From Desulfurispirillum indicum S5 (lineage in GTDB: Bacteria > Chrysiogenota > Chrysiogenetes > Chrysiogenales > Chrysiogenaceae): a stretch of DNA of 64,000 nucleotides. The translations under genes and the position numbers were made by a program. Of this stretch, positions 11,065 to 15,770 are shown in pieces. Position 1 is the first letter of the stretch, and each line of letters starts with the position of its first letter. The stretch lies in NCBI RefSeq assembly GCF_000177635.2, contig NC_014836.1:849501-913500 (forward strand), in the 5' to 3' direction. Under the pieces are notes generated by a model, which was not told where the DNA came from, did not search any database, and saw nothing but the letters and a program-made list of their open reading frames with translations.

Positions 11065-12494
11065 ACCCGGTCACCATGCACAACTACCAAAGTAGAGAGG
11101 TGCGTCTTGCGGGTCAGCAAAAAGGGAACATTGGGACGAAAGAAGGAGAGGGGCGACGTGGAATCGTGGGCCGTGATCAACAATCCGCTCCTGGCGTCTT
11201 TCAGTGCTGCCAGAGTCTGCAGAACAGGATTTCCCTCCAGCACCCGATAGTCAATTTTGGTCTTGTAAATATTCCCGAAGTCCGAAACCAGCTCCTGGCG
11301 CTGTTGCACCTCTTCCACCTCTTCACGACCACGCAACTCACGGGGCAGCGCGACAAAAAGCACCCTGAGAGGTATCTGCAGCATCTGCGAAAGTTCCATG
11401 CCAACTTCAAGGGCGTATACGGGCTCATTGCAGTTCAAAGATATGTAAATACTGGTGAAAGGATGCGTTCCCCTGGAAATAAAGAAGGGCTTGCGCGCCA
11501 TGCGGAAAATTTCTTTGCCGGTAAAGCTCCAGAAAAACCAGCTTTGATTTCCTGGAATACTGAAGAGCCCTGTCTGCTCTCCACTCCCCACAATTTGCAT
11601 GATATGCGGAATTGAGGGCTCAATAGAAAAGGAGATGTCACGGTTCTGCCGCACTTTCTCAGTGAGTTCAGAGCTTAAACGATCCCGCAATGGGTAAAAA
11701 TTCAGGCGATTTGCCTTGAGGTGGCGAAAGAGGTACACCACTTCATCAACTGTGGTCGGAAAGTTTCTATCCAATGGTGCCGCAATGGCGTTTCCATACT
11801 GAACGGGAAACTGTGGAGTTCCCTGCAGGAACGTATTGGCGAGACTTTCGAGGATCTTTGGCTCCCCGAAGAGCACCACCCGATCACCAACCTGAACCAC
11901 CTCCTCACCCACCGGCAGAACAATTTCGTTATTGCGGTATAAAGCCGCTATAAACCACTTTGAGGGTCGCAGGGTGCGGATCTTGCGATCGGTCAGATGG
12001 GATTTTGCCAGAACAGAGAGTTCGATAATCTCTCCGCGCTTCAGGCCAATGTCAATTGCTTTGGAGTAGTTGCGCTGCAGTTTATTGAGGATGATATTGA
12101 TGGAAACGCTGAAGGGCTTGATGGGCACGACATTAAAAGGAAGGTAGGCATCTTCGTCAGAATCTTCGTAAATCAACACCATCAATGGTACTTCCAGATG
12201 GAAAAATTCCCGTACCAGACGGCAGATTTCCAGACTGATATCCGACTCCTTGACGGCGACGATAATGGAATCAATGCTGGCTAGTGGGAGTTTTTTCCAG
12301 GTCACAATACTGCTGGCATCGCCGGTAATAAACTCTGTACCGGGAAAATTGTTTGCAAGCAACCCTGTCTTGCGTTGATCAAGATCTATGACAATAGGAT
12401 TCCAACCCTGGTCCAGTTCCGCCAGCAGCCGTTGTTCAAAGTAACCAAGGCCACATAATACCACACGGCGATCTGTCTCCAGCATTCGTATCAT
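11061..12494 (-). CDS. TrkA-N (RCK) domain protein with TrkA-C and a USP-like tail
   Basis: This 477-residue cytoplasmic protein begins with a Rossmann RCK domain (RRVVLCGLGYFEQRLLAEL, IVIDLD, FITGDASS). A TrkA-C-like segment follows at about 165-235 (VGEEVVQVGDRVVLFGEP). The last about 130 residues are an alpha/beta region resembling universal stress protein folds. RCK domains bind NAD(H) or nucleotides and gate K+ channels and antiporters. The ATG at 12494 has GGAGG four to five bases upstream; another ATG lies three codons on. The frame is open to 12647 but the upstream part looks non-coding. It overlaps the antiporter gene by four bases, which strongly suggests it is the regulatory subunit. 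Confidence 0.82.
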   Translation of the reverse strand: MIRMLETDRRVVLCGLGYFEQRLLAELDQGWNPIVIDLDQRKTGLLANNFPGTEFITGDASSIVTWKKLPLASIDSIIVAVKESDISLEICRLVREFFHLEVPLMVLIYEDSDEDAYLPFNVVPIKPFSVSINIILNKLQRNYSKAIDIGLKRGEIIELSVLAKSHLTDRKIRTLRPSKWFIAALYRNNEIVLPVGEEVVQVGDRVVLFGEPKILESLANTFLQGTPQFPVQYGNAIAAPLDRNFPTTVDEVVYLFRHLKANRLNFYPLRDRLSSELTEKVRQNRDISFSIEPSIPHIMQIVGSGEQTGLFSIPGNQSWFFWSFTGKEIFRMARKPFFISRGTHPFTSIYISLNCNEPVYALEVGMELSQMLQIPLRVLFVALPRELRGREEVEEVQQRQELVSDFGNIYKTKIDYRVLEGNPVLQTLAALKDARSGLLITAHDSTSPLSFFRPNVPFLLTRKTHLSTLVVVHGDRV

Positions 12495-12699
12495 GCACCC
12501 TCCAGTAAAGTGTATCCCGGCGCTGCACCCCACTGCAGCAAAACATAACAGCAGTCTCAAGCAACGCACATTTGCGAAGCTTGCCCCGACGCTGCTGATG
12601 TGCTGTTTTACTCTATTTGCACAGAAAAACGAAGCGAAAAGCTCCAATCTGCTGCCTTGTTCACACAGCAGCGAGCTGCGTTAGAAATGAAAATTATTC

Positions 12700-12728
12700 T
12701 TGACTGAGTCGGTAAACAATATCATAAT
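12700..12728 (+). promoter_or_regulatory. Sigma-70 type promoter for cydAB
   Basis: TTGACT (12700-12705), a 17-base spacer and CATAAT (12723-12728) match five of six consensus bases in each box. The predicted start near 12735 gives a leader of about 137 bases before cydA. Confidence 0.7.
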
Positions 12729-12734
12729 CGCCAA

Positions 12735-12757
12735 TGTGATTCGGGAAAATAATCACA
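12735..12757. promoter_or_regulatory. Operator-like inverted repeat at the cydA transcription start
   Basis: TGTGATT (12735-12741) and AATCACA (12751-12757) form a perfect 7-base inverted repeat with 9 bases between. It begins at the predicted +1 of the cydA promoter, a position typical of repressor operators. The half-site spacing is too long for CRP or Rex, so no regulator is named. Confidence 0.5.
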
Positions 12758-12871
12758 ATTCGCCATCTGCTCTTTCTCAGTACAGTGACACGTGATAGGA
12801 TGCGCCTGTCAGCTGAAATGAGAAAAGCGCAGGCACTTTAACGCGGAAAAGACTTACACAAGGAGTCGTCT

Positions 12872-15540: not shown

Positions 15541-15550
15541 GGGGGAGCAT

Positions 15551-15664
15551 ATGTCTGAACTGGTGAAATCGGCCGTCATGCTGGCCGTCTGGCCGGTGTT
15601 GATCTACGCCAGCTACCGTTTCTGCTTCTGGAGCCTGAAGAGCTATCTGAAAAAAGAGCAGTAA
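15551..15664 (+). CDS. CydX-like single-span membrane peptide
   Basis: ATG at 15551 opens a 37-codon frame ending at TAA 15662-15664. The upstream GGGGGAG is a strong ribosome site, and the gene lies ten bases after cydB. The peptide begins MSELVKSAVMLAVW, has one hydrophobic segment (about residues 6-24) and a basic tail (SLKSYLKKEQ). Many bd oxidases contain a third subunit of 30-50 residues (CydX, CydS, CydH) encoded after cydB. Size, membrane span and position match that role. The sequence does not show the MWYF start of enteric CydX, so orthology is not claimed. Confidence 0.72.
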   Translation: MSELVKSAVMLAVWPVLIYASYRFCFWSLKSYLKKEQ

Positions 15665-15736
15665 CCGAAGGGGGAACTGTATTGCCCCTGCTGCCAAGGG
15701 CACAAAACGCACACCTCCGAAGTGTTCACACATAAC

Positions 15737-15770
15737 AAAAGCGGCGAGGCCTGAAGGCCCGCCGCTTTTG
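15737..15770. terminator. Bidirectional intrinsic terminator after the cyd operon
   Basis: AAAAGCGGCG with GGCC pairs across a TGAA loop with GGCC and GCCGCTTTT, flanked by A- and T-tracts. It lies between the cyd operon (+) and the FapA-like gene (-), convergent here, and can end both transcripts. Confidence 0.85.

Follow-up and report, generated by a model that had tools for sequence, protein, structure and literature searches.

A conserved 37-residue frame after cydAB in Desulfurispirillum indicum is the published small protein CydY, with relatives in Campylobacterota and Bacteroidota

The cyd locus and the frame after cydB

The window analysed here is a stretch of 64,000 nucleotides from Desulfurispirillum indicum S5 (NC_014836.1, positions 849,501 to 913,500 of the forward strand), and all positions below refer to it. 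It contains genes for both large subunits of a cytochrome bd oxidase, followed by a short third frame and a hairpin (Table 1). CydA aligns over its full length with Escherichia coli CydA (6rko_A; E 4e-139), the long Q-loop region included, and has 191 residues between its KLAAME and GRQPW motifs, as against 124 in short-loop relatives. The genome, a single contig of 2,928,377 bases, carries one copy of cydA. D. indicum has been described as an obligate anaerobe (PMC3368425), and the role of a bd oxidase in this organism is therefore itself unproven. Upstream of cydA, a promoter-like TTGACT-17-CATAAT element (12700-12728) overlaps GTAAACAATA; the latter also occurs upstream of cydA in G002, the closest relative, and is possibly a regulator site.

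Table 1. Features of the cyd locus, in window coordinates.
Feature	Position	Strand	Evidence
cydA, cytochrome bd oxidase subunit I, long Q-loop type, 512 aa	12872..14410	+	PF01654, E 5e-166
cydB, subunit II, 376 aa	14410..15540	+	PF02322, E 2.5e-65; TIGR00203 above cut-off
Ribosome-binding site GGGGGAG	15541..15547	+	Sequence; G002, G001 and G034 are also G-rich at this position
cydY, probable single-span 37-aa subunit with basic C-terminal tail and motif WPxxIxxSY	15551..15664	+	Frame, conservation, profile match, literature
Intrinsic terminator-like hairpin, CAAAAGCGGCGaGGCC-TGAA-GGCCCGCCGCTTTTG	15736..15770	+	RNA fold

The third frame, called cydY here after earlier work discussed below, translates to MSELVKSAVMLAVWPVLIYASYRFCFWSLKSYLKKEQ and a stop codon. 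The gap of 10 bases that separates its start from the cydB stop codon holds the GGGGGAG site. The 35-nt hairpin beyond it has a folding energy of -27.8 kcal/mol (z = -4.4, for a folded stretch of 51 nt). It was not listed by a simple terminator scan, probably because part of its T tract sits in the stem. The next gene lies on the opposite strand. Translation, spacing and hairpin fold all agree with the sequence-only reading of this DNA, which had described a single-span frame of 37 residues ten bases past cydB, preceded by GGGGGAG and followed by a terminator.

Conservation of the frame

Genes are often followed by short frames, and cydY could in principle be a chance open reading frame. When the 250 bases downstream of cydB were shuffled 5000 times with dinucleotide composition preserved, 529 shuffles indeed had, within the first 30 bases, an ATG that opened a frame of 30 aa or more; 21 of these also encoded a membrane-like segment, and none of the 5000 combined both with a ribosome site. 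Conservation is a stronger test of reality than such counts. After cydB, G002 encodes MSEIVKSAVMLAVWPVLIYATYRFCFWSLKSYLKREQS, which has 34 of 37 residues in common with D. indicum CydY, and the corresponding position in G001 encodes MNEQLSSALLLLLWPLVIFVGYKVSVWSLTRYTSQEDKG. Both relatives keep the frame, its location and its motif, at a distance from cydB of 10 bases in G002 and 13 in G001. The codon differences between the window and G002 comprise 18 synonymous and 3 non-synonymous ones, with 19 of the 25 base changes at third positions, and past the cydY stop codon the two sequences look unrelated by eye. Most close pairs from other phyla share this synonymous bias; a single small exception is L076/L080 (1 synonymous against 5 non-synonymous).

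cydY is a conserved frame under purifying selection. A lack of conservation in related genomes, which would have spoken against the sequence-only reading, is not what we find, as the frame is kept in G002, G001 and beyond the phylum. Conservation already rules out a chance frame, and against the shuffle counts stand protein conservation across phyla, the synonymous bias and a unique match to a held-out profile (see below), which leave this explanation with a vanishingly small probability.

Distribution of the family and its genomic partners

Searches with the peptide against Pfam, NCBIfam, PHROGs and the PDB gave no matches, and searches with the CydY family gave chance-level matches only, for example to glutamate-receptor fragments. 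We found no Pfam or NCBIfam model that covers the family; without one, annotation pipelines are likely to miss cydY. The nearest cydB genes outside Chrysiogenota belong mostly to Bacteroidota and Campylobacterota; two of these loci are labelled otherwise, one as an Alphaproteobacteria and one as a Desulfosporosinus bin, possibly through faulty binning. Behind most of these genes comes a short frame that conforms to the pattern IIWLxxWPxxIxxSY...KK. D. indicum CydY retains W14, P15 and Y22 of this pattern. At the first tryptophan of the motif (IIW), Chrysiogenota have M or L (M10 in D. indicum), and the tryptophan of WP is kept.

A profile was built from 20 Bacteroidota and Campylobacterota peptides, with every Chrysiogenota sequence held out. 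Searched against the whole 2.93-Mb D. indicum genome (E up to 10), it matched CydY and nothing else (E = 4.7e-6). Among 80 related long-Q-loop cydAB loci, 67 were matched at E<1e-3 and 72 at E<0.1, counts that are partly by construction since the 20 profile-building sequences are among the matched loci. The other eight (L064, L074, L082, L085, L091, L092, L094 and L098) gave no profile match; these are long-Q-loop cydAB loci on Bacteroidota-type contigs, and no CydY was detectable downstream of them. CydY may be dispensable in some lineages or too diverged to be recognised, and its gene may have been lost or relocated. Across the phylum the profile also gave weak matches (E 0.02-0.1) in genomes that do not belong to the window's own family; these were taken as chance.

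Judged by sequence similarity, members of the CydY family occur at least in Chrysiogenota, Campylobacterota and Bacteroidota. The suggestion that the D. indicum peptide might be a lineage-specific version therefore has to be given up, as the same family follows cydB in the latter two phyla. A family model would be justified by this wider distribution.

The presence of CydY tracks the type of CydA. The stretch from KLAAME to GRQPW, which contains the Q-loop, measures 186-211 residues in loci of the CydY clade, the window included, and exactly 124 residues in each of 14 further cydAB loci from the wider phylum. None of these 14 short-Q-loop loci has a match to the CydY profile. This pattern, read from sequence comparison, is in line with the literature, which ties small subunits to the long Q-loop.

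A second small protein has been associated with these operons. Allen et al. described an unnamed hydrophobic small protein upstream of every operon of the CydY kind (PMC4325964). In the Bacteroidota and Campylobacterota relatives, a frame of ~70-80 aa is nearly always present before cydA; it resembles Porphyromonas gingivalis CydW in place and size, and on that basis is taken to be DUF4492. For P. gingivalis itself, a small frame immediately downstream of cydAB has been reported to be absent (PMC4668044). Within the wider phylum, DUF4492 was found in G034 only, directly upstream of its cydA. D. indicum, G001 and G002 have neither DUF4492 nor such a frame upstream of cydA: in D. indicum no DUF4492/CydW-like frame was found in window positions 12450-12871 or elsewhere in the genome. 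The G034 locus (L114), whose cydAB is of the long-Q-loop type, also has a membrane frame of 30 aa (MELALILLYVSTVVVSYYGAVFLLKKTNLL) 10 bases past cydB that lacks the W and P of the family. Neither BLASTP nor hhalign linked it to CydY; from its position and ribosome site it is possibly a very diverged equivalent.

Proposed role and comparison with other small subunits

The family has been described before. Allen et al. (2014) screened long-Q-loop operons that lack cydX and reported, for 15 species, a small frame that is conserved downstream of cydB and that they named CydY, with D. indicum S5 listed as an example in their Fig. 10A; the protein was described as a single helix with a strong ribosome site and a conserved tryptophan (PMC4325964). 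They grouped the family as Epsilon- and Deltaproteobacteria, whereas D. indicum belongs to Chrysiogenota, and the word Bacteroidetes is absent from their text (PMC4325964). Otherwise there is no difference of substance between their CydY and the frame described here, and we equate the two on the grounds of species, position and family. More recently, the Campylobacter jejuni member was found among translated small frames and renamed CioY (Froschauer, Svensson et al., 2025; PMC11955535). CioY has 34 aa, lies downstream of cydAB, has the conserved W, P and Y, and is equated with CydY by its authors; its predicted docking on CioA resembles that of CydX on CydA, and the binding was confirmed by reciprocal co-immunoprecipitation (PMC11955535). 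Translation and CioA binding are thus experimental for CioY, whereas D. indicum CydY is known here from its sequence.

D. indicum shares the features that mark CydY and CioY: a downstream frame with a strong ribosome site, a long-Q-loop CydA, similarity to members in other phyla, Campylobacterota among them, the tryptophan at the start of the helix together with P and Y, and an operon without cydX (no PF08173 match above cut-off genome-wide and none at the cyd locus). The earlier proposal of a small third subunit of bd oxidase therefore stands as the best reading, and its novelty does not, the protein having been named in D. indicum in 2014. The finding is already known; our modest additions are its reach into Bacteroidota, for which we found no report in the literature searched, and the absence of CydW/DUF4492 from D. 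indicum.

We consider it very probable that cydY closes a cydABY operon and encodes a small membrane subunit of the cytochrome bd quinol oxidase, built of one helix. In E. coli, CydX lies as a single helix against TM1, 5 and 6 of CydA, with its hydrophilic C-terminus in the cytoplasm; it has been likened to a clamp that holds the haem-binding helix bundles (PMC6853902). By analogy with CydX and C. jejuni CioY, D. indicum CydY would be translated, would bind CydA along its haem-holding helices and would help to assemble and stabilise the di-haem site. Its C-terminus would be cytoplasmic, because the basic tail fits the positive-inside rule. The subunit role in D. indicum is thus drawn by analogy, and a translated CydY might instead be a regulatory or leader peptide or part of another membrane complex. 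This seems improbable to us: no gene lies between cydY and the terminator-like hairpin and the next gene is on the other strand, so that nothing downstream is left to regulate; CydY tracks one kind of CydA across phyla; and CioY binds CioA.

Other small single-helix proteins of bd-type oxidases are CydZ (PF10617) and Geobacillus CydS. CydZ accompanies short-Q-loop CydA (PMC4325964); the peptide has no PF10617 match, and the CydA encoded here is of the long-loop type. The Geobacillus CydS chain was not matched in the PDB searches.

The closest comparison is with CydX and AppX of E. coli bd-I and bd-II. Like them, CydY has one helix and about the same length, follows cydB and accompanies a long-Q-loop CydA, and the same CydA contact and cytoplasmic C-terminus would be expected of it. 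CydX and AppX begin MWY and lack WPxxIxxSY, and common membership is undetectable by sequence. The two agree in position, length, helix and presumed topology, and both go with long-Q-loop CydA, which could nevertheless mean that CydY is a true CydX (YbgT family, PF08173) that has diverged, rather than a separate small protein. An hhalign comparison of the CydY family with a profile of two CydX-type sequences points weakly the same way, with the W-x3-W of CydX superposed on the W-x3-WP of CydY (P-value 0.001 for one comparison). The hhalign probability was only 20% with this two-sequence profile, and PF08173 did not find CydY at E<=10 in searches of the peptide or the genome, where nothing rose above chance. 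We therefore regard a diverged CydX as unlikely. That the peptide is unlike enteric CydX, as was first read from its letters, agrees with the lack of a PF08173 or NCBIfam match; a function similar to that of CydX is likely.

We see about an even chance that long-Q-loop bd oxidases of one clade, spanning Bacteroidota, Campylobacterota and Chrysiogenota, generally have CydY as their third subunit, a wider range than published, and that CydY arose independently of CydX on the same CydA surface and was kept in Chrysiogenota without CydW/DUF4492. The wider distribution provides a clear test of whether two unrelated single helices, CydX and CydY, occupy one and the same site on long-Q-loop CydA.
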